Below the pieces are notes generated by a model. That model saw nothing but the letters and a program-made list of their open reading frames with translations, did not search any database and was not told where the DNA came from. From NCBI GenBank assembly GCA_001630475.1, contig KV419443.1, positions 79,514 to 143,513 of the forward strand: a DNA stretch of 64,000 bases. The letters run 5' to 3'. This document shows, one piece after another, positions 2,021 to 30,233 of this stretch (the stretch's first letter is position 1; each line of letters opens with the position of its first letter). A program made the translations under genes and the position numbers. The DNA is from Sistotremastrum niveocremeum HHB9708 (Eukaryota; Basidiomycota; Agaricomycetes; Sistotremastrales; Sistotremastraceae).

Positions 2021-3208
2021 ATGTCAACCACTACCATCCAACTCCCCGACCTCTTCGAGAATCTCCCATCAGAACGTTCGATCAATCCGCACTACGAACC
2101 TATCGCTTCACAAAGCGCATCCTGGCTCGAATCCTTCGGTCTCCTAGACTCCAAAACCTGCGAACTCTTTCGTCGGTGTAAACCCGGTCTTCTCGTCGCA
2201 CTAGCCTACCCACACTTCAACCCCGACCACCTAAGAATCGCAATGGACATGATGAACTGTTCATTATATTTCGACGAGAGGAGTGATGCTAGGAATGCAG
2301 ATGAGGTACGGGAAGACGTTGAGATTGTGATGGATGTTTTACGGTACGTCATCCAATATACCTCGGTCCATTCGAGTTGGATGCTGAGTTGGATGGTTGG
2401 TGAAGGAATCCTGAGAAGGTGAGACCTGAAGGTGAAGACAAGATTGGTGTATTATATCAAAGGTGCGCTCTCTTCCTTAAAAACTCGATCGAACCCACAC
2501 ATTTAACCTAAATCGGAAATAGTTTCTGGACTCGAGCTCTCCAATCCGCATCCCCCTCCTCCGCGCGCCGATTCATCAAATCCTACCACCAAAACCTCCT
2601 CGCCGTCATCTCCCAAGCCCACGATCGCCAATCCCACACCATCCACACCCTCGACTCATTCCTCCCCCTCCGTCGAATGACAGTCGGCCTAGTCCCCTGC
2701 CTCGACTTCCTCCAACTAGGAATGGATATCCCAGATGAAGTTGTCGAACATGCGAGTATATCGGACTTAATCGAATGTGCTAACGATTTGATTGTGCTTG
2801 AGAACGTACGCCTCTTCCTCCCCTTACACCCGAAAACAAAAAAGAACTGATGGAATTGTGGGGTAGGATATATGTTCGTACAACGTCGAACAAGCCCGCA
2901 ACGACTCCTCCCACAACATCCTAACCATCATATCCCACCAACTCTCCCTCTCCCTCCCCGAAGCCCTACTCTACGTCGGTACATGGCATCACACTCTCAC
3001 GCTCTCCTTCCTCTCCAAACTCTCTTCAATCCCCTACCCCTCCTTCCCATCCGAACACAGAGAAGATATAAAAGCATATATATGGGGAATGGGGAATTGG
3101 GTAAGGGCGAATGTGGAGTGGAGTTTTGAGACGGAGAGGTATTTCGGGAAGAGGGGCGGGGAAGTTCGAGAGAAGAGGGAGGTGGTTTTGTTGCCGAAGA
3201 AGGAGTAG
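2021..3208 (+). CDS. sesquiterpene synthase (class I terpene cyclase)
   Basis: Predicted to ionise and cyclise a prenyl diphosphate, most likely farnesyl diphosphate, to a sesquiterpene in the cytosol. Four exons (2021-2343, 2406-2462, 2523-2805, 2867-3208) join in frame to 334 residues, the usual length for basidiomycete enzymes of this family. The metal-binding aspartate-rich motif is DERSD at residues 85-89. The NSE motif is NDICSYNVE at 221-229, and the C-terminal diphosphate-sensing Arg-Tyr pair is R312-Y313. The second exon encodes the family's LRNP..RPEGE block, which fixes the first intron. All key residues are intact. The product cannot be deduced. A broken inverted paralogue lies at 785-1250 and an aldo/keto reductase gene follows 0.5 kb downstream, but no P450 or other tailoring gene is seen. 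Confidence 0.93.
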
Positions 3209-3740
3209 AGTACCAGTATTCGTAGATGAAGCTGTGGACGAGGATGAGGATTACGTAATTTATTTCGGTTTCTTTGGTCGCTATCTGCTTAAGCGCTCGA
3301 GCTTGAGGATGTCAATTCTGATTTGACCCCCCTCCATCTCATTCATTTGTAACACTCTCCACGATCTGTCTAAGCACCGCCAAGCCAAAGACGACGGAGA
3401 CTCTCGGGCAGAAGACGTCGATCATATCATATGACGGGACGTTCTGACGGGATGAAGGGATGGGATGAGTCGATGCGGTAGCACGTCTGCGGGACCGAGA
3501 GACGAATTCAATGCTTATCCTGTTCTGGCTCATGTGGTGGCGTTCGTCTAGTAGAAGAGGTTGGCTGCCGATGTAAGAGGGGTGACGCGTTCAAGTCGTA
3601 GGAATGCCGAGGAGGAGGTGTATAAGACCTAGGAGATGGATGGGAAGAGATTCTTTGCTTGGCTCGACTCGATCTCTATATCACTTTCATCTTTATTCTC
3701 ACTCTCTCGATCGTTGAACGCTCCTGGACCTTGCGACAAC
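3209..3740. other. intergenic, nothing recognised
   Basis: About 530 bp between the terpene synthase stop and the AKR start. Short ORFs on both strands have no recognisable domain. A TCTATATCAC element near 3673 could serve the AKR promoter, but support is weak. Confidence 0.4.
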
Positions 3741-6003
3741 ATGGCCGAACCCCGAAAAACCACCATGCAATACGGTCCGTCCCCCACCCCCTCCACCTCT
3801 TCCCAGTCCACAACTCTCACTAACGACCGCCATATCGAAATATAGTCCGCCTCGGAAACTCAGGCCTCAAAGTCTCAAGAATAATCCTAGGAATGATGAC
3901 ATACGGAAGTGCGGAATGGCAGCCTTGGGTGAGGGATGAGAAATTGGGGATGGAACATATAAAGGCTGCGTACGTCGTAGTTCCTTTCCTTTTCCTCTTC
4001 CCTTTTCCTTCCTCTCTCCGCGTCATCCTCCCCTTTCCTTGCTCCCCTTGCGCTCTTCTTTGATCGTCCGCCCATTAATATTCCGAATCCTGGTACTGAC
4101 ATGAGGAGACAGATACGACGCCGGAATTCAAACTTTCGACACAGCAAATGTCCGTCCCACCAGCTCCCGTTTCCTAGCGAGAAACATGCTCATCTGACAA
4201 CCTCCCCCAGGTCTACTCAAACGGTCTCTCAGAATCGATCCTCGGAAAAGCGATCAAAGAATACAAGGGTGCTTCACCGGCAAATCCCGGTATATCAGGT
4301 AGGTGTGGTGTGTAGCCGGACGAGGTCTTAAATAAAAAAAAGTATCCGTTTTTTTATTCAATGTATTGGGTTATATATGTATCAACGTCATATAACATCA
4401 TCTCTCACTGCGCAAAACTTCAATACTACACTGTATTCATCCATATAGAGACCCCAAACGACCAACTCGGCATCGGAGAGCCGGCCGACAGGCTCGCGGG
4501 TGTTCGGTTGAATTTCAATCTCCGCCGGCATCTCGGCAACGTTCGGAAATATCGGGGTTACCGGACATAAGGGCCCAATATAGGCAAAAGCGCTTGGTGT
4601 GTACCGAACTGAGGTCTTAATAAAAAAAAAGACCTGATATACAAAAAATAAAAATTAAAGCCCCCTTGAAAGAATATAATCTCCCCCGCGAAGAGATAGT
4701 CGTTATGACCAAGGTCCCCCCTCTCCCTCCCTCCCCCTCATCCCACTTGAATCCTAACGCTTCGTTGTTTGAAAGGTTTTCTTCACCGTCGGCAAAGCAC
4801 CCTCCGTATCATTTTTCGAAGGCTCCACTTCCACACCCGACCAATCAGGCTACGTAAATCAACACGGCCTCTCTCGCAAAGTACGCCTCCCCTCCCTCAT
4901 CTCTCCTCTCTCCTGTCTCTACGAAGAAATATTGATGGTGGGGGTGTAGCATATATTCGATTCGGTCAAAGCAAGTCTCACACGTCTTCAGCTCGACTAC
5001 ATCGATGTCCTTCAGTGTCATCGATTCGATCCCGATACGCCAATCGAAGAAACGGTTCGTCAAATCCTATAGCATCCCTTCCTCCGTCGAATTGAGTGTC
5101 TGGGCGTCTGATTGGGAATGTATGGTGTGTGCTGTGTAGATGAAAGCGTTGCACGACGTTGTACAAGCTGGATATGTCCGATATATCGGAATGAGCTCAT
5201 GTTATGCATATCAATGTTCGTCCTCCCTCCCTCATCCTATCATCATCATCCTTATACTAATATCCACTCCAACAGTCAACGCTATGCAAAGTACGCCCCC
5301 GCCACTCCCCCACGATTGTTGATGCTGATACAAATGATACGACTAAGATTACGCGATCCAAAATCACCTAACTCCATTCATAAGCATGCAAAATCACTAC
5401 AACCTCGTTTATCGAGAAGAAGAACGAGAAATGATGCCTACTCTCAAGGTCCGCTCACCTTCCTCCCTCTCCCTCCTTCCTTCTACGTGCTGAAATTAAA
5501 GTGGTAGCAATTCGGCGTGAGCTCAATCCCTTGGTCCCCTCTCGCCCGGGGTCTATTAGCCAGAAGTAGTACTGCCGAGACGAGAAGGGGAAAGGAAGAT
5601 AATTGGACAGGAAGTATGTACGATCGCGCATCACTCGGGAACTCAGAGATCATCAAAAGGTTCGTTCTTTCTTTCTCCCGAATAAATTGGAATACGGTGT
5701 TGATTGGGTTGATTGGGTAGGGTGGAGGAGATTGCGAAGAAGCGGGGTAACAGTATGGCGCAGATAGCAGTCGCATGGATCCTCTCAAAAGACGGTACGT
5801 CTCCCCTTCCTCCTCCCCTCTCCTTTCTCCATAATCCGTGGACTGACTGAACGGTGGTAGTTGTCGCTGCACCGGTTCTGGGAACGACGAGTGTAGAAAA
5901 TCTGAAAGATATACTCGGAGCGATAAATATCAAGTTAGATGAGAGTGAAGTGAAGTATCTCGAGGAACCGTACGTCGTACAAGCCATCGTTGGGCATCTC
6001 TAG
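3741..6003 (+). CDS. aldo/keto reductase with a MITE-derived intron
   Basis: NAD(P)H-dependent oxidoreductase of the aldo/keto reductase superfamily, predicted cytosolic TIM barrel. Thirteen exons can be joined in frame to 364 residues: 3741-3774, 3846-3969, 4113-4149, 4211-4298, 4673-4713, 4776-4880, 4950-5054, 5140-5215, 5276-5290, 5348-5448, 5508-5659, 5721-5794, 5861-6003. The catalytic tetrad is present: Asp62 (FDTAN), Tyr67 (VYSNG), Lys108 (VVMTK) and His167 (LQCHR). A 405-bp MITE at 4264-4668 interrupts the exon between AIKEY and NLPREE and contains in-frame stops. A GTAGGT donor 35 bp inside its left end and an AG in the right target duplication would remove most of it, leaving a 13-residue insertion. 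If that splice is not used the gene is broken. The inverted paralogue at 26182-28072 lacks the insertion. Confidence 0.85.
4264..4668. mobile_element. hAT-like MITE inside an AKR exon
   Basis: A 405-bp element flanked by a perfect 8-bp target duplication, AAAGAATA (4256-4263 and 4669-4676). Its ends are imperfect inverted repeats: CAAGGGTGCTT on the left, and CAAGGGGGCTT as the reverse complement of the right end, with a further shared TATATCAGGT block (left near 4290-4300, right complement near 4631-4640). An 8-bp duplication with a CA-starting inverted repeat is typical of hAT transposons; no transposase is encoded. Internally there is a direct repeat of GAGGTCTTAA followed by an A-run near both ends (4319 and 4611). 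The intact ends and identical duplication suggest a fairly recent insertion. Confidence 0.85.
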
Positions 6004-16415: not shown

Positions 16416-17360
16416 TCATATACAGAAACAAACAAACAGATTTTGCCGCTCTTCGTACGCCCAAGGAAATATCCATGGGATCTGCTTGATCTCGGCTTGC
16501 GCATGCTGTATATAACCGTCATACGCATGAAACAGGTTCGTCCTTGCGTCTCTGCACGAGCTCTTCTCAACCGCAAGTTCGCGAAAAGAGTGTGCCGTTA
16601 TATCAACAGTCGGATCCCTGTCGAGCGCCTCGCAACAGATCTTCGTGAAGGTACTCCACGCTTGACAGAACTTCTGGTGCTCGACTTCGTTCAGATAGAC
16701 ATCATCGTCATCTGCGAGAATTTCTCTGGTGCGACATTCACAGTTGGGTATGCCGGTTCTGTCATAGAGATCAAAATGACCCCTTGCAGACGAAACGCGT
16801 TGCTTTCGGTAAAATTCAAGCTTCCTTATATCTTGAAGAGTAATTTCTTCGTTTTCCTCAGCGGTCCGAGGTTCCCGTAGAAGCGCAGACGGATTCTTCA
16901 CCAGAATTGTTTCTAGAAATGGCTGAAGTCGACGAAGTCCGTACCTCTTTGCCAGAAGATAGGTTTCGACAGGGTACGATTCTGCGATAGGGGCGAGAAG
17001 GAGGTGATCTTCTACGGCCGTGAAGATATTTGGAATATCATATTTATCGGCGATGATCAAGAGCGGCTTGATAGCCCTGAGATCCTTGATAGAAGGTCGT
17101 GGAAGTGGGTAGATGTATCGGAGCATGGCATCGACCCAGTTACCGCTTTCTTTGACGTCGACGACAGGCTGCAGGGCCGCTGGTGCAGTGGAAATGTCAT
17201 CAAGAGTCAACATATCCCGAAAGACACGCGAGGCGATGCGCATAAGATTTTTATGAACCTGGAATTTGACGTTATCGGCGGAGCGGATGATTAAGTCGGC
17301 ATCGGCGAATTGGAAGAGGGGAGAGAAGGTCTCGGGAGGATTTGGGGCTGCAAAAGCCAT
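16416..17360 (-). CDS. BTB/POZ domain protein (BTB1)
   Basis: BTB/POZ protein, predicted to dimerise and possibly act as a Cul3 ligase adaptor. The start at 17360 is followed by FQFADADLIIRSADNVKFQVHK and SRVFRDMLTLDD, the BTB core, then LRYIYPLPRP and IIADKYDIPNI. The C-terminal region has the family's cysteine pattern: CEC (NCECRTRE), CQAW, and CRDAR. Translation to 16416 ends IPWIFPWAYEERQN and then stops in what is probably the last intron. Splicing from GTTTGT (near 16439) to CTGCAG (near 16376) would add a short tail ending at a TAG at 16309, as in paralogues. The tail exon is less certain here than in BTB2-BTB7. Confidence 0.83.
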   Translation of the reverse strand: MAFAAPNPPETFSPLFQFADADLIIRSADNVKFQVHKNLMRIASRVFRDMLTLDDISTAPAALQPVVDVKESGNWVDAMLRYIYPLPRPSIKDLRAIKPLLIIADKYDIPNIFTAVEDHLLLAPIAESYPVETYLLAKRYGLRRLQPFLETILVKNPSALLREPRTAEENEEITLQDIRKLEFYRKQRVSSARGHFDLYDRTGIPNCECRTREILADDDDVYLNEVEHQKFCQAWSTFTKICCEALDRDPTVDITAHSFRELAVEKSSCRDARTNLFHAYDGYIQHAQAEIKQIPWIFPWAYEERQNLFVCFCI

Positions 17361-18779
17361 ATTGAAGTTGCGATAGAGTATGGATATCGATACCTATGAA
17401 ATGAAAGTGATTAGGGGCAGATGATGATGCCACACATCGAGACAAGGACGGGACGCACGTTCACTAGTTTCGTACTCGATTTCGCAAACTATTTTCACAG
17501 CTGTCAGCTTATGCCTCTCTTCACAACGTATCGAGACGGTCTTGCGACGGTCCTGGGCAACGAACAAGGCGAAGATGCAGGAGAATTTCAAGAGGACGGT
17601 CACAACGTCACATGTCACATTCCAATAGGCGCCCCTGATTTCGGCGCTAGTGCCGCCTTCTGACTCTTCATCCCATTGCTTCATCCAGTCTCAATCCGGG
17701 AGATAAAGAAATTGAAACTAGCTAGAATAATTATGTTTATCTCCGTGGGTACCCCACATGGATGGGAAGGGGGGCGAAGTGTATATGTATCGTCAACTAC
17801 GTGCTTTGTTACTTGAGGCAATATAGAGAATCTTGATATCATATTATGTGCCCCTGTCAACCAAAACTACGCATTTCGCCCTCCTCAGGGCCAACTTTCT
17901 CAGTTCGGTTCATGAGTTAACCTCCGACCCTCGACTCGAAGTTGACCACTAAGACGGTATTTCAAAGCTCTTTTCGCTATCTGGTTAATTGATCAGTTGT
18001 GTGTCCTCGATAATTTTGAATCGCTTTACCGAAATTATTTCGAAGATTGCGCGCAACGACTAGCAGAGATCCAGCATTCCCAGAGAACTTCGCTCATTCA
18101 GCGTCATTCTATTGCATCCAAAGTTAACATATTTGTCAGCCGCATTGAGTCTACAATGACTCTACATCTAACTTGTCCTTTTCGACCTATTTCAACGTTC
18201 CCTATTACATTCATCCGTTCCATTCTCACACGCTCTGGATATACATGTAAACCGGTGTTATATTCAATGCCTGTATGACCATTTGATCGAAGACTATAAT
18301 TGTAACACTAAGCCTGTTGCGAAAGCCCTGCAATGATCTTTTACCGAATCCGACAGTAGACGTGCAAGAGAAAGAGAAAGTAATTGAGGGGAAGGCAGAG
18401 AATTCAACTAAACAACATCTTGAGTCCGAAACTAAATTCCGAATTGCCAAATGCCGAGAGCTATGCCGAGCGCATGACGCGAGAGGCTACGTGAGAAAGT
18501 AAAGGCTACGTGGGAATTCGGAGGTCCCTTAGACCCTTTGAATTTCGAGCCCACCAGCTCATAGTAGGGGCTTCGCCCCCAATAATACTAAATCGAACAT
18601 ATATAAGATTATATAACCACCGATATCCTCACGAGGAGCGACTTTTGACTCTCGTGAGGCTCTTTCGGCTTGAAGATTAATCGGTGCATGATAGGATATA
18701 AAGGCTGTTCGATTCTTTCACGAGGCAATCAGTCAAAGAGCGACCAAAACAAGAAAATATCTCACAGATGGAATGCAAG
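17361..18779. other. 1.4-kb spacer in the BTB array
   Basis: No coding region recognised. A TCACAACGTCACATGTCACA stretch (17598-17617) lies upstream of BTB1 and resembles the TGACGT sites of other BTB promoters. A perfect short hairpin, GGGGC-TTC-GCCCC, is at 18567-18579. The rest is AT-rich with short unsupported ORFs. Confidence 0.45.
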
Positions 18780-19815
18780 TCAGTTCGAGCTATCATATTC
18801 GAATCGGGCCCGGCTTCTCCATAATTTATTTTTCAAAGATGCACTGGGTTGGACAGGCCTCTCAGAAAAGGCACCGTAGACGTTGTTCAATCACTTACGA
18901 CTCAGATACAGCCTGATACTGGGCGGCGAAAGTCCAGGGAAGAAGTTTGACCAGACGACCAGCTTCTTCGATCCCCGCGGCATAATGTCCGGTGAGGTTG
19001 GCTCTCGCTTCTCTGCAATCGCTCCGTCGTAAAGCCACGGCTTCATCACGGAGAGAGGCGCTAGTAATATCAATGGTAGGATCTTGTGATAACCGTTGAG
19101 AACAAAGGTCAACGAAAGACGTCCACGCGACGCATGGAGGATAAGAGAGGACTAAGTGATTTTCGCGAACTGCCCTCTGTTGACATTCACAGTCAGGCTG
19201 ATATGATGGGGCCTCATTGCTGATAATCGATACAGCTCTCTTGTGGCGTGTCGAACGATAGTATTCGAGTCTCTGAAGATCATGGATGGTTATCGCGGCC
19301 ATCTCGGAGGAGCATTGAGTAGTGCTCAATATCTCCCAGGGACGCTTCAATATGACCGGTTCCATGACTTGCTCCACATATCGAAGGCCAAATTTCTTCG
19401 CCAATGCGTAAGTCCCGATGGGCTCGGGTTGGGCAAGAGGACTGAGAAGTAGAAAATCTTCGAGAGATGACGTAATGATGGGGATGTCGTATTTATCGGC
19501 CATCTCTAGTAGAAGTATGATGGGTTCCAGATCCATAAATGTAGGGCGACGGAGAGGGTAGATATATCGCAGCAACGCCTCCATAGACTCGCTTTCCTCT
19601 ACAACATCGACGACGCGCATTGGAAGGGAAGAAGCCGAGGAAAGGTCTCCGAGAGATATCATATCTCGAAAGACGCGTGATGCGAAAGACATGATAGATT
19701 TATGAACGTGAAAGTCGACCTTGTCGGCCGAACGGACGATGAGATTCGCATCGGCGAATTGAAAGTGCGGGGAGGTACGAGGCATCGGCGGAGAAGATGG
19801 TACATCGACAGACAT
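18780..19815 (-). CDS. BTB/POZ domain protein (BTB2)
   Basis: Two exons: 19815-18899 and 18843-18780, intron 55 nt (GTAAGT..CCCAG). The BTB core HFQFADANLIIRSADKVDFH with SRVFRDMISLGD is followed by LRYIYPLRRP and MADKYDIPII. The cysteine signature is CEC (PDCECQQ), CVAW and CREAR. The small last exon encodes ASLKNKLWRSRARFEYDSSN, giving the basic-then-FEY tail shared by the family. The unspliced frame stops at once after the donor, which supports the splice. Likely a ubiquitin-ligase adaptor; partners unknown. Confidence 0.87.
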
Positions 19816-20346
19816 GATCTAGAGATATTGAGAGCGTTCACGAAGTTTTCAAGAAGCCAACACCGATGCGACAAGCTTACGAGTTATCCGATGATTCCAA
19901 TCATATATCCAATTATGACTCCAACTATCCCTGAGGTGGAAAGTACCAGCCACTGTAGTTGAGGCTGGATTAGTTGTAGCAGTAGACAGTAACCCAAGTG
20001 TCAGAGTGACGATGGCTGCGCTCAAAATCGAGGCGTCGAGCGAGATGCCAGGCGTAGAAACGAAGTGGAGCGTGACCGATGAATCTGAACTTCTCTCGTG
20101 ACGTCACGCGTTGCTTTGCTAAGCAGCTGGAATTCTCGGAAGACAAGTATCAGATTCGATATATCGCGAGCAGAGATAAGCGTATCATAGAAACAAGCTA
20201 TAGATAAGGAAGTCCGTGGCATCTCCGTGTTATAAGATATATATGAACCAGGAAATTGTCGAGGATCCAAATTCGAGTTGACTTGTTCGACGGACTACCT
20301 TGAACTCATCCGCTTGCTCAAATGAAGGACTGAAGCAATGATGACC
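19816..20346. other. BTB2 promoter region
   Basis: About 530 bp without a gene. It contains the TGACGTCACGCGT element at 20098-20112 and the 3' end context of BTB3. Nothing else recognised. Confidence 0.45.
20098..20112. promoter_or_regulatory. TGACGTCACGCGT composite site upstream of BTB2
   Basis: GTGACGTCACGCGTT combines a CRE-type bZIP site (TGACGTCA) with an overlapping ACGCGT (MluI cell-cycle box type) about 285 bp upstream of the BTB2 start. The same composite occurs upstream of BTB3/BTB4 and BTB5. Confidence 0.5.
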
Positions 20347-21391
20347 TCATTCTATCGCTTCGTATTCGAAAGTGCAATCATCGATCCCCATGTCCTCTCG
20401 GGAACTAAACGCCATCAGATTAACAAAGTTATAAGAGGGTGTCCGCATAAAACAAGACGACATACCAGAGTTTCTCCCTTTCATATTCCTCAGGGAACGC
20501 CCATGGTATTTCTTTGATCTCTCTGCCCGCTTGTTGAATGTAGGGAGCATAGTGCGTAAATAGGGTGACGCGCGCATCAGGACAGTTCGACTCCGATATG
20601 ACCTCATACCGTAAGGTCGGATCAGAGATGTCCGTAGAGGGATTCTCTCTCAATGTCTTGATGAACAGGTCCGCAAAGGCTGTCCATGCTTCACAAGCTC
20701 TTTCGGCCCTTTCGCCCATTCGCCTGCAAGCGCAGAGCGGAAGCGACATATGACTGGTGTAAGTAGATGAATGAAGGGCTACGAAGGCAGCAACGCTTCG
20801 TCGAGTACGAGAGTGATCGAGTCGATGAATATCATCCAAAGTAAGCACTTCCGTCTCTTCAGTCGACGAGCCGAATGCCATAAATTTTGAGATATTCTGC
20901 ACGGCATATGGCATAACAGCGGCTTCAACTCGTGTCAGGTTGAATTTCTTAGCTATGCCAAATGTTCTGACCGTTTCAAGAGTCAGGAGGTCGCTCTGAG
21001 ATAGAATTTCCTGCAAGGTGAAATTGATGAGGGGAATATCGTATTTGTCAGCTAATTCGAATAGGACGACCATGGGGGATAGGGATTTCAGAATTGGTCG
21101 AGGGAGTGGGTAAAGGAAACGCAGCGCAGCCTCTATGACATCTGACTCCTCAGAGACGTCGACGAGGGGTAGATCGGACGTCGTGGATAAATTTTGAGTA
21201 TCGAGGGAGAGCATGTCGCGAAAGACTCGCGAGGAAGATGACATGATGGACTTATGAACGTGAAATTCCATTTCATCGCTGCTCCTAATTATAAGATTCG
21301 AATCCTGATATCGAAAGTGTGGGGAGACTCTGGGATTTTGAGCACGCCTGCCGGATGACGCGGCCAGTTGAGTTCCGGTGACGGTTGTCAT
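20347..21391 (-). CDS. BTB/POZ domain protein (BTB3)
   Basis: Starts MTTVTGTQLAASSG at 21391; the 20 residues encoded upstream in the same frame have no counterpart in paralogues. BTB core: HFRYQDSNLIIRSSDEMEFH, SRVFRDMLSLDT, LRFLYPLPRP, LADKYDIPLI. Cysteine signature: CAC (PLCACRRM), CEAW, CPDAR. The main exon ends REKLC at a GTATGT donor (near 20467); the acceptor GTTTAG opens a last exon encoding SREDMGIDDCTFEYEAIE, with the conserved FEY tail and stop at 20347-20349. It is divergent with BTB4 and shares its promoter. Confidence 0.85.
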
Positions 21392-21958
21392 GATCCAACG
21401 CAGCTGAACCAATAGTACTAGGCTGAGGTAGTGAGTCCAGTGCCAGATCAAGAGTGAACAGACGTCCAGCTATCGAATGTTATTGCTGAAAAGGGTGACG
21501 ACCCCAACGACTTGGAGGAGGATGGATGAGATCTATGAGCAGCAATGACCGTGAGATCAACCAGCCGTTAGGCAAATGGTGATAATAATACCAATACTAT
21601 TACTATCCCTCCACAACGGGCCTTTCTCTCGTAATACGATGAACTTGAAGGGAGACAAAACCTCTGGCTGAGATGGTTGAAGATGTGTCACGCTGGCGTT
21701 ACGTCACGCGTCATCCGATTTTCTGCCAATCGGCCCAATCCAACGCTGCCTCCAATCCTCAATTCGTTCCTTTGAGTTTTTCAATCAGCTCGATAGCTCA
21801 ATCAAGCATCCGGGAAGCTTCAGACTTCCATCAAGTTGGAGAAAGACTAGTACAGGAGACTTGCTTCACGTTATCGATAGCGCTGACACTGGCACGGCTT
21901 GAGGTGCGCACGTTGTGTTCTTCTTCTCAACTGGTTAGGCTCTGATTAGCAGCTCAGT
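21392..21958. promoter_or_regulatory. divergent promoter between BTB3 and BTB4
   Basis: A 567-bp intergenic region between two divergently transcribed BTB genes, at the centre of a three-minus, three-plus gene arrangement. It contains the 29-bp block at 21696-21724. No ORF with a domain. Bidirectional use is inferred from geometry. Confidence 0.6.
21696..21724. promoter_or_regulatory. 29-bp block identical to one upstream of BTB5
   Basis: Contains TTACGTCACGCGTCATCC and is identical over 29 bp to 23220-23248. The core merges a CRE-like half (TTACGTCA) with ACGCGT. It lies about 240 bp upstream of the BTB4 start and about 310 bp upstream of the BTB3 start. Confidence 0.6.
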
Positions 21959-23027
21959 ATGGCCAATGCATCTACTACTACTGTTCCGGAAAGCACCAAA
22001 TCCCCACACTTTCAGTTCCCCGATGCCGACCTCATTATTCGGACCAGCGACAATGTCACTTTCCACGTTCACAAAACAATCCTCTCATTCGCGTCACGCG
22101 TTTTTCGAGACATGTTATCTCTTGATAACATCAATCCTCCATATACCTCCGAGCAACGCATCGTAGATGTCTCAGAAGACGGCATCCTCACTGATGCGAT
22201 GCTCCGCTACTTCTATCCCCTCCCTCGCCCGATCTTCTCGAATCTCGCACCTATCATCATCCTTCTCGAAATCGCCGACAAATATGATGTTCCCATTATC
22301 GCCACTTCACTCGAAGATTTCCTTTTAACGACTACCCTTGGACAGGTCGAACCCATTCGTGCCTATGCCGTTTCGAAGAAATTCAAATTGCTTCGGTTTG
22401 AGGCATACATGGAGCCTGTGATTCTGAAGTTACCTTACAGTATATTTCAAGGCAAAGATGCTCCTGACGAGCTGAGCGTCATTACTTCTGACGATATCAG
22501 AAAGCTCGATTTCTATCGTTCTCGAAGGGTCGCTAGGGTCGATGCACTCCTCATGGAAGAGCTTGAAAATGCCCCAAAGTGCCGTTGTAAAAAGGATCAG
22601 GCCATCGAATTCATGGAGTATCACCCAGATGTGACCACAGAAGAAGAGCGAGCGAGCTTAGAGGACGGAATGACCTGTTTAGCCTGGAGCTCTTTCACCA
22701 GCCACTATATTCGGCGTTTGAGAGAAAATCCGACGCTCGATATTTCTACTAGATATCTTCGCCAAGAAGCCATCGATGACGAGCACTGCAAGAATGCCAA
22801 AAAGAACCTGTACGGTGGTTATGTCGAAATCATAGCTGACTTCAAGCGGCAGATAGCAAAAATTCCTTGGACGTTCCCCGACCAATGGAAAGCCTATGAA
22901 TCCCGGTGCGTTCTGATTTTGTCTCTCACCTCAACCCCATTTGTTGATGTGTTACGACATCAGAAAATTCGAACTTAACAAAGCATACCGAGACAGTGTC
23001 AAGTTTGAGTACGCCGAGTTGAAATGA
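21959..23027 (+). CDS. BTB/POZ domain protein (BTB4)
   Basis: Starts MANASTTTVPESTKSPHF. BTB core: FPDADLIIRTSDNVTFHVHK, SRVFRDMLSLDN, LRYFYPLPRP, IADKYDVPII. Cysteine signature: CRC (PKCRCKKD), CLAW, CKNAK. The first exon ends in ..AYESR at a GTGCGT donor (near 22909); the acceptor ACATCAG (22964) opens a last exon with KFELNKAYRDSVKFEYAELK and stop at 23025-23027. Unspliced reading gives a stop 50 nt earlier and loses the conserved tail. It is nearly identical to BTB5 in its first 60 codons, so the two are recent tandem duplicates. Confidence 0.9.
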
Positions 23028-23520
23028 AGGATCAATGCGTGCGTGATATATCGGCGATATAATTGGGACGTTGCGAGGAGCCCTTTATTGATCTCACGTG
23101 CAGTACAATACGATACAGTATAGATAGATAGATAGAATTGATGTACAGAAGGTCTCGAATTCATTTGAACGCAGGATGAAATTATTGGATGAAACCGACG
23201 GCTTGCAGCGGTCACGCCTGCGTTACGTCACGCGTCATCCGATTTTCTTCCAGTTCAACGCCCCTTCGAATCAATTGCCACCACCTTCAATTGTCAATCC
23301 GCTCTATCGAATCTTCAGTCTGATCGACCAGGACTCAAAAGCGTATTGACTGCTCCCCACACTCCAAGAAAATTCCACGATTCCGAGAGTTCTGAAGTAC
23401 CTGCTGAACGAAGGCGCTGACACTGGAAGGGTTGCAATTTCGCGTTCAAGGTATGCTCGTCGAACCATTTTCTGACATTGTCCATGGTGTTAATGCTCTT
23501 ATAACTCGTTCAGTATCTGA
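23028..23520. other. BTB5 promoter region
   Basis: 490 bp without a gene. It carries a short GATA microsatellite (about 23121-23135) and the 29-bp block at 23220-23248 shared with the BTB3/BTB4 promoter. Confidence 0.5.
23220..23248. promoter_or_regulatory. 29-bp block identical to the BTB3/BTB4 promoter
   Basis: Second copy of the block with core TTACGTCACGCGTCATCC, about 275 bp upstream of the BTB5 start. Sequence just outside the block diverges (GCCAATC versus TCCAGTTC on the right), so the block stands out from simple recent duplication. Confidence 0.6.
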
Positions 23521-24597
23521 ATGTCCTTTGAATCAACGACTGCTCCCGGAAGCACCAAATCTCCCCACTTTCAGTTCCCCGATGCCGACCTCATCATTCG
23601 GACCAGCGACAAAGTCACTTTCCATGTCCACAAGACGATCCTCTCATTCGCATCCCGCGTTTTCCGAGACATGTTATCTCTTGATAACATCAATCCTCCA
23701 TTCACCTCCGAACAACGCGTCGTCGACGTCTCAGAGGAAAGCGGCCTCATGGATGCCACCCTCCGATATTTCTATCCCCTCTCGCGTCCAATCCTCAAGG
23801 ACCTACTTCCCATCATACTGCTCCTCGAAGTCGCTGATAAATACGACATCCCGGTCATCACTTTCTCCCTCGAAGATCTCCTGCTGGTGACCGAGGTCGC
23901 AAAGAGCTCGCCGGGGCGAACGTACGCACTAGCAAGGAAATTCAAATTAGGCCGCCTAGAAGAGTTTATCGAGCCGATCGTATTGCAGAACCATCATAGC
24001 GTTTTAACTCTCATCGACTCCCCCGACGAACTGCATGCGATCAGTTCGGAGGACCTCAAGAAACTCGACTTCTATCGTTCGCAAAGGGTCGCGGAAGCCC
24101 GGAAAATACTTCACAAGAGGTACATCAAAGACGCTCCGAGATGTGACTGTCGAACCAAAAGTCATCTGCGCTTGCTCCATATGGAAGGGGTCGATACGAC
24201 TTCCCTGACGGAGGAACAGTTGGATCGAGGAGCATGGGAATATGTCTGTGAAGCCTGGTCAGATTTTATCCGATTGTGTCTCCGCGATCTGAGAGAAGAC
24301 CCCTCGTTGGATATATCAGAACAGTCTCTCCGCGACGAGGTCATAGAGGACGATGTTTGCGACGATGCTGAGACCAACCTTGCTGGGTTTTACGGAGAGC
24401 TCATTTCTCAAGCCCACCACTTGATAGCTCATCTTTCCTGGACATTTCCTGAGGAGTGGAAAGTCAGACAATCCAAGTATGTATATACTCTGACTTCTAC
24501 CTCCGTATACTGTTCGATTGATTCCCGATACAGGGTTCTTAAAAAACAGAAAGCGGAGAGAGAAGGGGTCAAATTCGTATACAATGAGCTGGCTTAA
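23521..24597 (+). CDS. BTB/POZ domain protein (BTB5)
   Basis: The best-preserved family member. BTB domain about residues 14-120 (FPDADLIIRTSDKVTFHVHK, SRVFRDMLSLDN, LRYFYPLSRP, VADKYDIPVI). A helical middle part includes LDFYRSQRV, and the cysteine signature is C208, C210, C243 and C280, followed by WTFPEEW. A 57-nt region after RQSK (GTATGT..TACAG, about 24480-24533) has intron signals but is a multiple of three without a stop. Both spliced and retained forms therefore reach the same tail, EREGVKFVYNELA. Predicted nuclear or cytosolic adaptor; no DNA-binding zinc finger is seen. Confidence 0.9.
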   Translation: MSFESTTAPGSTKSPHFQFPDADLIIRTSDKVTFHVHKTILSFASRVFRDMLSLDNINPPFTSEQRVVDVSEESGLMDATLRYFYPLSRPILKDLLPIILLLEVADKYDIPVITFSLEDLLLVTEVAKSSPGRTYALARKFKLGRLEEFIEPIVLQNHHSVLTLIDSPDELHAISSEDLKKLDFYRSQRVAEARKILHKRYIKDAPRCDCRTKSHLRLLHMEGVDTTSLTEEQLDRGAWEYVCEAWSDFIRLCLRDLREDPSLDISEQSLRDEVIEDDVCDDAETNLAGFYGELISQAHHLIAHLSWTFPEEWKVRQSKYVYTLTSTSVYCSIDSRYRVLKKQKAEREGVKFVYNELA

Positions 24598-24969
24598 GCT
24601 ACAGACTGATTGATTCGTTGACGAAGTAATCTTTGAGAGCACGCTGTACAATACACAATTTCTTTGAAAGCCAGGCTCTGGCTTGATTGTATCCGGGATC
24701 CGACTCCGGAATTGTCCCGAGTCTTGCCTCCGCTCAATCTTCCACTTCCTATCAATTTTGCCTACGCAGAGTCACAGATTTGGCGTTTGTAAACACGTAG
24801 GAGACTGAGAGAGTGGAGGCATAAGTCAACATTCCTTCAGCAAGCAGCGCACAGTCCAAGGCTCAGTCATTGCGCTTTGAAAATTACACGTATAGCCACA
24901 AATTTTCGAATCCAGTCCATCTCGATTCTAATCAAAATTAATGCACAGGCTATCATAAACGCTGTCTCA
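24598..24969. other. BTB6 promoter region
   Basis: About 370 bp. No TTACGTCACGCGT block is present here, unlike upstream of BTB2-BTB5; only a weak AGAGTCACAG at 24768. No gene seen. Confidence 0.4.
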
Positions 24970-25955
24970 ATGGAAACGGAGAACACGATATCACCCGAAT
25001 TTCACTTCCCAGATGCCGACCTCATCATCCGCACGGTCGATAATATGACATTCCACGTCCACAAATTCATCCTATCCTTCGCCTCACGCGTCTTTCGCGA
25101 CATGCTATCCCTCGATAACCTCCAACGCCCATCTCATCCCCATCAACGCGTCGTAGACGTCTCAGAGACCAGTATGATCTGGGATGCCGCCCTTCGATAT
25201 CTCTACCCCCTTCCACGTCCGACATTCAAGAATCTAGGTCCGATCGCGCTTCTCTTCGCGATATCCGATAAATACGACATTCCCATCATCGCTTCAGCAC
25301 TAGAAGACACGATTCTTATCTCGAATCTATCTAAACGCTATCCCATCCGCTCATTCGCTCTCGCCAAGAAATTCAATCGAGCGCGATTACTGACTCGCGC
25401 AGAGACTGAGCTAGTCAAGCAGCACTGCGAGATTATCAGGACAACGACAGTACCGGAAGAACTGGATTATATCACGGTGGATGACGTACGGAGATTAGAG
25501 TTCTATCGAACCGAGCGGCTGAGTCGGATCAGAAAATATCTGACCACAACGAAGCTCCTCCCCACTCCCGAATGCAACTGCTGGGAACGCTACAAAAGAA
25601 CCGTACCAAAGAGATGCGAAGCTTGGGAATGTTTCGTGGATGCCTGTTGGGAGGAACTTCGAGAAAGCCCAACGAGCGATATATCAGATCTTCGTCTTCG
25701 CCGACGAGCTGTCGAAGAATCGGAATGTCCAGATGCTCAAGAGGTGCTATTCCGTCATTATGATCTTGATATTGGTACTTTGGAATACGAGGTCAGCCGT
25801 TACGCGTGGTTGTACCCTGAGAAATGGGCAGAGAGCAAAGCGACGTACGTATTTACAGCGTTGTGACAATCACCTTCTGATCTCAATCCGACTGCAGGAT
25901 AGCAGCAACGAACGAAGAAGAACGTGAAGACATCGAGTTCGAATATACTGAATAA
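24970..25955 (+). CDS. BTB/POZ domain protein (BTB6)
   Basis: Start set at 24970 (METENTISPEFHF) by comparison with paralogues. BTB core: FPDADLIIRTVDNMTFHVHK, SRVFRDMLSLDN, LRYLYPLPRP, SDKYDIPII. Cysteine signature: CNC (PECNCWER), CEAW, CPDAQ. After AESKA a GTACGT donor (near 25846) and CTGCAG acceptor (25898) lead to a last exon encoding IAATNEEEREDIEFEYTE, with stop at 25953-25955. The conserved acidic FEY tail confirms this exon. It is the most diverged of the plus-strand trio. Confidence 0.88.
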
Positions 25956-26181
25956 GACCGACGCGATACCTCTGCAACGCCAGCACCGAGCTGACATCGA
26001 GGATAATATATTCGTATTTATGGAGACTTCTCCCAAACCCGGAACGCTGATCAGGTCTATAAGACGAGCGCGATCTACCCCGCATTTATTCTTACATTGT
26101 CTTTATCTTAACATAATCTACACACTAAACTTTCTACGCACCGCGCTTTCCGAATCTCCTCGAGTAATCCACAAGATCCGC

Positions 26182-28072
26182 CTAGAAATGACCGATAACA
26201 GCCTGCGCCTTATACGGTTCCTCGAGATATTTTATCTCCTCTTCCGTCAATTTCACTTTCACAGCCTTAATGATCTCATGAAGATTATCCACGCTCGTAG
26301 TTCCCACAATCGGAGCCGCAACAACTGGACGATGCAATCTCAAAATCAATGAATCAACGGACAAGTATGAAGACCCACCATCTTTAGACAAAATCCAAGC
26401 AACAGCAACCTGAGCCATACTGATCCCCTTCTTCTTCGCGATCTCCTCGACCCTATCAAGAATGACGTCATCATCACCATCCGCTCAGGGAGGTATTGGA
26501 GGGATAGCGTACCGTTTGACGATCTCGAAATTCCCTTCATCCCCTTTTCCATAACTCTTGATCAATCTATCCGTCTCGCCCCTTTTCGTTTGTTCGTGAG
26601 CTGGTCGGGTGAGGAATCCACGTGCAAGGGGGGACCAGGGGATTGAGCCGACGCCGAAGTGCTATAAGAGATGTCGAAGTCAGCTTCGGATGTACTTGAG
26701 GAAGAGGGAGGGAGGAGAAACGAAGGAGAGGGAGAAATAAAGACGAAGCGAAGCGAAGCATGGATGGATAGAAGAAGTGACGGCATCAACGCAAAGAGAC
26801 AAGTACCTTGAGGGTAGGCATCATCTCGCGCTCTTCTTCGCGATAGGCAAGACTATAGTGATTTTGCATGCTGATGAAGGGAGTCAACTTATTCTGGATG
26901 GCGTAGTCTGATGTATTCGGCTTCAGCAAGGAGTTGAGGAATGCGAAGGGGAATGCAGCGCACTTTGCATCGCATTGACTAGATGAGAAAGGTGTTAGCA
27001 TATCGATAATACAAGATGAAGACGACAGAGGAAGGGGAGGAGAACGTGCAGCGGAGATTTGGTATGGTAAAATGACCAAAAGAAGGCGAAAGTACGAGAA
27101 AGGATAATCAGAAAGCCGAAGACGGATGAACGTACATTGATAAGCCCAGCATGAACTCATTCCAATATATCTGACATATCCCGCTTGAACGACGTCATGG
27201 AGCGCTTGCATCTATATTTCCCTCAGCATCTACAGCCTCTGCTTTTAACGGCGATCGTACCGTCTCTTCGATGGGGGTGTCGAAGTCGAATCGATGACCT
27301 ATGGGACGGTATTAAAGTTCAGCGAAATTGAGACTGAGAGAGACGGAGGGTTCGCGCACATTGGAGCACATCGATGTAATCGAGCTGAAGACGCTCCAGA
27401 CTGTGCTTGACGGAGTCGAAAATATGCTACAGCCGAGTGAACAATCAGGATCCAACTTGACCAGAACACACGTACCTTCCGAGAGAGACCATGCTGGTTG
27501 ACGTATCCAATACTATCAACATTCACTCCTCCAAGAGTAACGACACCAGGGCTCTTGGCGACGGTGAAGAACACCTGAGAAGCAGTGTCGATAAGAATTT
27601 CGTCGAAGGAAGATGATAAGACGTACTTTCGTCATCACGACGATTTCATCGCGAGGAAGGTTGAGCTCTTTGATGGCTTTTCCTAGGATGACCTCGGAGA
27701 GACCATTGGAATAGACCTAATCATCGACATCGTTATCGGCTAAGGCAGAACAGTGGATCGAAGATCATCATACGTTCGCCGTATCGAAGGTCTGGATTCC
27801 CGCATCATAGCTTCAGGACCATCAGAGAATCGGATAGAAAGAAAAGATAATCCACGTACGCAGCCTTGACATGTTCAATCCCCAACTTCTCATCCTTAAT
27901 CCATGCCTGCCATTCCGAACTCCCGTATGTCATCATCCCCAATATAATCCTTGAGACTTTCAGTCCAGATTTTCCAAGCCGAACTGTGATGGCCTCTTCG
28001 TCAGCATATCTCGATTACCTAGACGTAGGAAGACGAACCGTATTCCATATCAGTCTTGCGAGGCTCGGACAT
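26182..28072 (-). CDS. aldo/keto reductase (intact paralogue)
   Basis: Oxidoreductase homologous throughout to the AKR at 3741-6003 with the same exon layout. Exon 1 is 28072-28039 (MSEPRKTDMEY), the same 34-nt length as in the first gene. Later exons encode [56 protein letters not shown] and [14 protein letters not shown]. The last exon ends LEEPYKAQAVIGHF at 26182-26184. Catalytic Tyr, Lys and His are visible. It has no MITE, so it shows the empty site: KAIKELNLPRDE is continuous. The two AKR genes face each other across the F-box and BTB arrays. Substrate unknown. Individual internal exon ends were not all fixed. Confidence 0.85.
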
Positions 28073-28695
28073 GGTAGAAAGTCAAAATCCGAGGGCCGAG
28101 TGTACGAGGTGGGAATTGAAAGAGGAGTTGAAGCCTGATGGTGGGAGCGGATGAATGTTGAGCGACTCTTGCCTCGATGGAGAGAATAGGCTTTCGGTCT
28201 TACATCATTCTTTTGACGAGAGTGCGGGAGCCCGCAATCGAGCCTCGAGGTGTGAAAATTCCGGCCAAGTCGATTCAAATCTGAAGCGTTCTGAAGAGCA
28301 CTAGTACTGGGTACACTGGGCTTTCACGGAGTCAACATCGTAATAATTTGACGATGGCCATAGCTGAGTCGCCTGGGTAGCACCTAGGCAGAGTCCCTGA
28401 TCTTACGTAATTTCCAATCTGCCTCTAATGCCGAACATTTCCGACATGCTAAATTTTCAGCCAGCGACTTTACCATGCCTTCAACACGATCACTTGACAG
28501 TTGTGCGCTAATGCTGAATTGAGACGACGGAATGAGAGTCATCACAAGAATACATGTGATGATTACAAGATTTCCGCTGCGCAGATTGGGACATCGGAAG
28601 GGAATAAGAATCTGGACGCTCTTCAGCAACTCTACAAATCCAGTGGATAACATCCAAGCGTCTCAATCATCGACGTACTTCATGAGTGAGAAATG
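28073..28695. other. intergenic, nothing recognised
   Basis: About 620 bp between the AKR start and the BTB7 stop. Short ORFs lack domains; no repeat recognised. Confidence 0.4.
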
Positions 28696-29744
28696 TCATG
28701 AGCTCGGGGTTTGGTACACAAATTCGGCCCTTTCTCGCCGTCTCTGATTGCGGACTCGCCACCTAAAATCCCAATCAGATAGAGACGCCACAAATTGTTA
28801 AAAAAATACCATTTCTTGGTTGATTCATAATCCACAGGAAATGTGAAAGGAACTTCTTTCACTTCGTTGCTCAGTCGCTCGGCGTGATATTGATAATATC
28901 CATAAAAATTAGTCCGCGCACTCGGGCACTCTTTCTCAACCTTGTAGAATACCTCTTCGAGAGCTGAGCTATCCATAGGATCAGCCTGCGGATCCACATA
29001 AATCTTTCCACGAAAGTCATCGTGCATGTATGACCACACGTCACACCCCTTCGCGCGCTCATCCTCAGGCAACTCCATATTTTTGAGAATGCACGGACAA
29101 ACGGGCGCTCTCGAGAAATTGACCTCTTCAAGGAAGTCTTCCAAGACGTGCAAAACCTTGTCAGCTCTCGTTTTTCGATAGAACTCAAGTCGTCGGATAT
29201 CGTCCACGCTGACGAAGTCAAGTTCATCCGGCAAATCGGATCCACGAGTCAGAGATATCCCCGTGTGCTCTTTCAGAAAGACTAATTCGGCGGCGGCTTC
29301 GAGTCGTGTGAGTTTGAACTTCTTGGAAATCGAGTATACCCTCGTTGTATGACTTTGGATGAATGGACTCGCCAAGAGGCCCTCTTGCATCGCTTCACCG
29401 AGAATCGGGATATCATATTTATCACCGATCTCAAGTAGAATGACGATCGGCTCCAGCGTCGTCAAGATAGGGCGAGGAAGGGGATACAAGAATCGAAGCG
29501 CCGCTTCCATCGCTGCACTAGTTTCAGTCACATCGACGACACGTGTCTCGGACGAAGATTGAGCTCGAAGATCGTCGAGGGATAGCATGTCTTTGAAGAC
29601 GCGTGAGGTGGATGCCATTATCGATTTATGGACGCGAAGTTCTACGTGATCGCTCGTTCGGATGATGAGGTTGGCGTCAGCGTATTGAAAATGCGGCGAT
29701 GAGGATGCTGTCGGCGTAGATGAGCCCACAAAAGATTTATCCAT
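28696..29744 (-). CDS. BTB/POZ domain protein (BTB7)
   Basis: Starts MDKSFVGSSTPTASSSPHF at 29744 (an ATG two codons upstream is also possible). BTB core: FQYADANLIIRTSDHVELRVHK, SRVFKDMLSLDD, LRFLYPLPRP, GDKYDIPIL. Cysteine signature: CPC (PVCPCILK), CDVW (tryptophan kept, Ala replaced by Val), CPSAR. Intron 28809-28763 (47 nt, GTATTT..TTTTAG) joins to a last exon encoding RVRNQRRRERAEFVYQTPSS, with stop at 28696-28698. The unspliced frame runs further but loses the family tail. It stands apart from the BTB1-BTB6 array, separated by the AKR. Confidence 0.87.
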
Positions 29745-30233
29745 GATCATTTCTGCCGCGATATCAGTGAACTTTCGCGAATCATGACATAGCTATCTCA
29801 CAAGACGCAATTCTCAGGGGGGGATGCTTTGAGACAGTTCTTTGACGAGGCGCCTTGCGAGGCGCTCGAGAAGGGTGAGAGCAACGTGACAAAGCTAGTG
29901 ACATAACGCGTCACAGGGTGCGATGCCGATTCGGCAAGTAGGTAGGCGCCTGCAGCGACAGAGGCGTATATACTCTGATTTGGTAGTGTACGTACCCGAC
30001 ATCAGATATGAAGCCACTACTTGGAGACGAGGAAAAATACACCAGTGAGTATTGCTAAATATCGCTCAGCGAGCCGGACCTCAAAATGGAAATTCGGACG
30101 CACCCAAAAAATTCAGACTCCGTCTGATCTAGCGTTGTAGCAACCAACTGCGCGGAGCGCTTGGTTGAGATGAGAGTAAATGGTATTCGAGTTCCTCTTC
30201 TATCGCCCAGAACTCACTATTATCAGGTATTGC
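29745..30233. other. divergent spacer between BTB7 and kinase K1
   Basis: About 490 bp, divergent promoters. It contains TGACATAACGCGTCA at 29899-29913, a variant of the BTB promoter element. No gene seen. Confidence 0.5.
29899..29913. promoter_or_regulatory. ACGCGT-type site upstream of BTB7
   Basis: TGACATAACGCGTCA lies about 155 bp upstream of the BTB7 start; read on the minus strand it begins TGACGCGT. It keeps TGAC and ACGCGTCA of the BTB composite but not the full CRE palindrome, so it is a weaker match than the sites at 20098, 21696 and 23220. Confidence 0.4.

Follow-up and report, generated by a model that had tools for sequence, protein, structure and literature searches.

Introduction

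Insertion of a transposon is one of the mechanisms of intron gain, and the inserted elements may bring their own splice sites, as outlined in passages of a review (PMC3443670) that also cites an intron made by the maize element Ds (Giroux et al., 1994). According to excerpts of two further reports, Ds1 is approximately 400 bp long (PMC3260210) and offers a choice of splice sites, three donors lying no more than 35 nt from one end and two acceptors close to the opposite end (PMC5432752). Introners with target duplications and inverted ends are described in part of the work of Gozashti et al. (2022; PMC9860276), where those of Aureococcus come with both donor and acceptor and leave 12 additional bp. 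Among the literature matches listed, taken at the level of titles and the first lines of abstracts and with subscription papers mostly outside this scope, none announced a fungal MITE with an 8-bp duplication that is spliced from an exon.

Intron gain from DNA transposons has so far been inferred mostly after the fact. For the insertion described here an identical copy of the element exists, empty paralogues are present, and the junctions that might form are predicted with single-base precision. RNA from this gene would tell whether splicing acts on a newly inserted transposon immediately, inefficiently or never; were the element to stay unspliced, the site would be that of an ordinary gene-disrupting MITE.

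Results and discussion

Host gene and insertion

The window (the whole 64,000-nt stretch of DNA analyzed) carries an aldo-keto reductase (AKR) gene that is interrupted by a short element. The features of the gene and its insertion were as follows:

3741–6003, + strand: AKR gene (PF00248) with 12 exons and 11 ordinary introns, encoding 351 aa with the element left out
4211–4713, + strand: exon 4 of the AKR gene, split by the element between AIKEY and NLPREE
4256–4263, + strand: left target-site duplication, AAAGAATA
4264–4668, + strand: non-autonomous transposable element (MITE), 405 bp
4669–4676, + strand: right target-site duplication, AAAGAATA
4313–4315, + strand: first in-frame stop with the element retained, giving a 99-aa product that lacks K95 and H154
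26188–28072, − strand: intact AKR paralogue with an empty site, from spliced alignment

The protein was assigned to the AKR family by its match to Aldo_ket_red (PF00248, E = 8.9e-72) together with the D-Y-K-H residues. D62, Y67, K95 and H154, which we take to be the AKR catalytic tetrad, were all present in the 351-residue translation of the joined exons. Spliced alignment to the window, with the protein read from the window gene itself as query, gave the 11 ordinary introns, at positions common to three paralogues, and zero frameshifts or stops in the remaining exons. Compared with the three intact paralogues, dN was 0.14–0.17 and synonymous sites were saturated, which indicates that, before the insertion, the gene had been constrained.

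The 405-bp element, its perfect 8-bp duplication and its position in an AKR coding exon were confirmed as the initial annotation had given them. The matching inverted ends it reported were found over the outermost 11 bp, though with one mismatch (10/11; CAAGGGTGCTT / CAAGGGGGCTT). Further inside, at element positions 27–37 and 369–379, a second inverted pair (GTATATCAGGT / ACCTGATATAC) matches perfectly. Judging from sequence identity, the insertion is very recent, because one other genomic copy, on contig C48, is identical over the full 405 bp. For this reason the intactness of the other exons and of the tetrad, which the initial annotation had pointed to and which the alignment bore out, is worthless as evidence of a working gene: the insertion is too young. 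A search of the element against a plasmid collection returned zero matches.

All three intact paralogues (26188–28072 in the window, L031 and L033) were uninterrupted at the insertion site, and so was a fourth, decayed one (L034); the empty site previously noted for a paralogue at 26182–28072 was thus recovered, at approximately 26188–28072 on the minus strand. Spliced alignments showed no intron at residue 82 in any of the four. Besides this gene, the contig holds three places where a 30-aa stretch spanning the joined site runs uninterrupted, and C32 has one more that contains a stop; three further partial matches of lower significance (E 0.1–0.4) were examined by spliced alignment alone. A near-identical empty allele was sought in the assembly and not found, the best empty matches being 90% identical. 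The window gene belongs to a small cluster of AKR genes.

Several further observations concern the paralogues and the rest of the window. The decayed paralogue (G000:C32:105959) has in-frame stops and altered exon ends. A phase-1 intron at residue 153 is present in the three intact paralogues and absent from the window gene (4950–5054), which could reflect either loss in the latter or gain in the former. A neighboring gene (2022–3210) contains NDIYSYNVE, seen by eye and presumably terpene-synthase-like; its first open frame gave no Pfam match. A row of several similar, BTB/POZ-looking open frames spans 16419–29792, and the single one that was scanned matched PF00651.

Candidate splice sites and their strength

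Within and beside the element, the following signals could take part in its removal:

4269–4274, + strand: alternative in-frame donor GTGCTT, 5 nt into the element
4299–4304, + strand: candidate donor CAG/GTAGGT, 35 nt from the left end of the element, U1 match 8/9
4308–4313, + strand: alternative in-frame donor GTGTGT, which with 4672 forms the best pair by intron-only scores
4634–4638, + strand: branch-like motif CTGAT, inside the right-hand copy of the inner inverted repeat
4659–4660, + strand: candidate acceptor TTAAAG inside the element, leaving 17 extra residues with donor 4299
4671–4672, + strand: candidate acceptor TTGAAAG, formed by the element end and the duplication, leaving 13 extra residues with donor 4299

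The donor at 4299 and the AG ending at 4672 were located where the initial annotation had placed them, and translation of the joined exons confirmed that this splice would keep the frame (351 + 13 = 364 residues). That annotation had proposed intron gain with an acceptor made by the duplication; a frame-keeping splice of this kind does exist, but acceptor 4660, inside the element, is another option. It had left out this in-frame acceptor as well as the in-frame acceptor 4693 and the in-frame donors 4269 and 4308. In total, 15 donor/acceptor pairs kept the frame and were free of stops, six of them combining donors 4269 or 4299 with acceptors 4660, 4672 or 4693; the last lies in the exon beyond the element and, although in frame, loses exon codons. 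Besides the two products of donor 4299 listed above, the predicted splices would add 16 (4308–4672), 3 (4269–4672) or 7 residues (4269–4660). Predicted splice sites near the element ends and an in-frame product correspond to a Ds-type arrangement.

It is possible, but in our view unlikely, that the element is efficiently removed from most transcripts and that a true intron gain has produced a slightly longer AKR; according to the acceptor used, its predicted length would be 364 or 368 residues for donor 4299, 354 for 4269 and 367 for 4308. The number of frame-keeping pairs is in line with such a gain, as is the position of the insertion. AKR alignments vary in length there (a 3-residue gap in 4xk2), and for this reason 3–17 added residues might be harmless. 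Strength was judged against 47 reference introns of 46–191 nt from four AKR genes, de novo intron training from open frames having been dropped as too noisy. By U1 pairing, 4299 was the best donor, with eight of nine matches and a duplex (−11.3 kcal/mol) that surpassed those of all 47 reference donors. The TTGAAAG ending of acceptor 4672 also closes the intron that follows in this gene (TTTGAAAG).

Other measures argued against efficient removal. With the full donor matrix, 4299 scored lower than any of the 47 references and 4269 ranked close to the lowest, although this matrix is biased because its exon positions reflect shared codons; by full matrices the best pair was 4269–4672. When only intron positions were scored, 8/47 reference donors were as low as 4299 or lower, and the same held for 7/47 reference acceptors relative to 4672. 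A G at +4 occurred in a single one of the 47 reference donors. GTNGGT was not enriched ahead of branch/acceptor signals (17 vs. 19 control matches; 309 sites in 237 kb), although GTAGGT alone was slightly enriched (8 vs. 4 of 60). The low native scores may mislead, since the reference set is small. The predicted intron, at 353–404 nt, would be about twice as long as the longest reference (191 nt). CTGAT at 4634 is the sole CTNAY motif in 4560–4672 and is first followed by an AG at 4660. From its branch A the distance is 23 nt to acceptor 4660 and 35 nt to 4672, compared to 8–28 nt in 40 of the 43 references with a motif (four had none). Eight reference introns pass over AGs after the branch motif, so acceptor 4672 may still be used.

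Control sequences allowed the arrangement to be compared with chance. Any in-frame, stop-free pair was found in 759/1000 dinucleotide shuffles and in 407/1000 genomic 405-mers. A native score at least equal to that of 4299–4672 occurred in 197/1000 shuffles and 119/1000 genomic 405-mers, and one at least equal to that of the best real pair, 4308–4672, in 164/1000 and 96/1000, respectively. An in-frame donor with at least 8/9 U1 matches combined with an acceptor scoring at least 1.0 was found in 5/1000 shuffles and 6/1000 genomic 405-mers. Keeping the frame is therefore ordinary, whereas the U1 match of donor 4299 is unusual.

The same controls bear on plain disruption, in which useful splicing would not occur and transcripts would either retain the element and its stop at 4313–4315 or end at internal poly(A) signals. 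We consider this a serious possibility, somewhat short of an even chance. Since equal-scoring, frame-keeping pairs are frequent in the controls, the splice-site arrangement needs no explanation. The element also contains three AATAAA (4331, 4619 and 4647) and one ATTAAA (4654), and the decayed L034 shows that AKR copies do die. What speaks against plain disruption is the strong U1 match of donor 4299, seen in only 5–6 per 1000 controls.

The element family

A search for further copies in the source genome (34.7 Mb, 111 contigs), a check that the initial annotation had suggested, gave at least 31 matches. Seventeen complete copies could be delimited, of which 15 have perfect 8-bp duplications, one a duplication matching at 7 of 8 positions and one none; the 15 perfect duplications show that the family is truly mobile and no chance resemblance. 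Being short, with inverted ends, target duplications and 17 dispersed complete copies, the elements were classed as MITEs. Five copies, including that of the window, are 96–100% identical, and two are longer (942 and 735 bp).

Some copies showed additional structure. One (L045:4414–5355) contains a nested element whose inverted ends read TAGAGTTTGAAAGTCC and which, by eye, seems to be flanked by a TGAACGAG duplication. Two others (L052:6038–6450 and L053:4033–4446) share the left flank and differ in the right, L052 having no duplication, which suggests that copies close to a contig end have been rearranged with each other.

For all 17 copies, the coding context was assessed by reading the joined flanks in six frames, listing neighboring open frames, scanning ten of these with Pfam and scoring codon use in 30 codons across the sites. 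Among the ten frames, one had DDE transposase matches and one a sub-threshold MYND finger. The codon-use score was highest at the window site (5.0), followed by L042 (3.3); the window score was favored by the training set of 17 sequences, since this took in three AKR paralogues. Three other copies had no open frame across the site, and the L041 copy closely precedes the first ATG of a 344-codon frame. As to the state of the other host genes, which had likewise been proposed for checking, the window copy was the only one placed in demonstrable coding sequence, so that the count is at least 1 of 17, a lower bound scored without gene annotation and with one flank covered in part.

This low count weighs against the idea that the family is a dedicated introner seeding introns across many genes, which we regard as very improbable. 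In its favor, the donor CAGGTAGGT near the left end is retained in 15/17 copies, across two diverged subfamilies. Conserved termini are, however, expected anyway for transposase binding, and because the ends are conserved for transposition the retention of the donor was set aside as evidence of splicing. Furthermore, the 6.1-kb partner of the family, described below, carries CAAGTGGGT in place of the MITE donor.

The full-length partner and the hAT label

The only full-length partner found was a 6107-bp element (L060 and L058; G000:C22:160121–166227) that has the same family of ends and is flanked by perfect 8-bp copies of GACAGCGC; its open frames are 235, 396, 749 and 282 residues long. The 749-residue ORF had eight further matches in its own genome; a relative on C4 is 38% identical and shares ATDGD, D.KH..KR and GTDALEK.FG..RT. 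Neither this ORF nor the C4 relative gave any Pfam match up to E = 10, and the ORF had six matches in the PDB, the best no better than E = 0.073. Pfam matches were also absent from the 235-residue frame and from the 288 residues that were scanned in the 396-residue frame; the 282-residue frame had only two weak, sub-cut-off matches (FpoO, E = 0.011; CXXC_Zn-b_euk, E = 0.062). The 749-residue ORF possibly represents an undescribed transposase family.

The initial annotation had called the element a hAT-like MITE. The 8-bp duplication and the short, CA-type inverted ends agree with this name, but none of the 21 genomic matches to PF05699 (hAT) lies inside the partner. Such duplications and ends occur in other superfamilies too. 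The hAT label, based on duplication length and end bases, is unproven. Membership of the KDZ group was considered and rejected: none of 19 matches to PF18758 overlapped the partner or the relatives of its 749-residue ORF, the nearest being about 5 kb away, on C34.

A separate locus on C39, which weighs against discarding the hAT name outright, combines a hAT C-terminal domain with, further on, a right end of the family (L057:376–546 and 4024–4079). The PF05699 domain (C39:43375–43545) is on the same strand as, and 3.5 kb upstream of, this right end (C39:47078); between the two lies a remnant (C39:44777) of the 749-residue protein. The left end of the family was searched for at this locus and not found.

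We think it improbable that the element is a ready-made intron caught at birth, in which the inner repeat would supply the donor GTATATCAG/GT on the left and the branch point ACCTGATATAC on the right, possibly mobilized by a transposase family absent from Pfam. On this same improbable reading, removal of 4299–4660 would always add 51 nt (35 + 8 from the element and 8 from the duplication). The frame would then be kept by length wherever the element inserted in this orientation, with a stop at the junction possible in some phases.

Fate of the allele

Of the readings considered, which partly overlap and whose likelihoods are not intended to sum to one, we moderately favor a mostly disrupted allele, perhaps with some Ds-like partial splicing, after a very recent MITE insertion; plain disruption is its lower end. 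A non-autonomous element with an 8-bp target duplication has entered exon 4 of one member of the AKR cluster. From messages retaining the element, translation would end after 99 residues, with the loss of K95 and H154. The U1-complementary donor, the branch-like CTGAT and the AGs at the right end may allow splicing to clear the element from some transcripts, while efficient splicing is unlikely, given how poorly these sites fit native ones and how unusual the length would be. A disrupted or partly rescued allele is perhaps tolerated because three intact paralogues remain.

Comparison with known systems

Compared with hAT MITEs, the element is alike in its 8-bp duplication, its CA...TG termini and its several copies without evident coding capacity, and differs in that the sole full-length partner found has no PF05699 domain. 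The likeness to Aureococcus introners, as far as the portions of text cited above describe them, lies in splice sites borne by the element (here predicted), an 8-bp duplication and residues added in frame. Those introners occur as many introns, however, whereas at least 1 of the 17 copies here is in demonstrable coding sequence and its splicing is predicted only.

From what the cited excerpts on maize Ds/Ds1 convey, the likeness extends to a length of about 400 bp, non-autonomy, an 8-bp duplication, several donors near one end with acceptors near the other, and extra residues left behind. The termini and the sequence of the element differ from those of Ds/Ds1, and its partner protein matches no Pfam hAT model. 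The splice sites of Ds come from published RNA work, and those of the present element are predictions.
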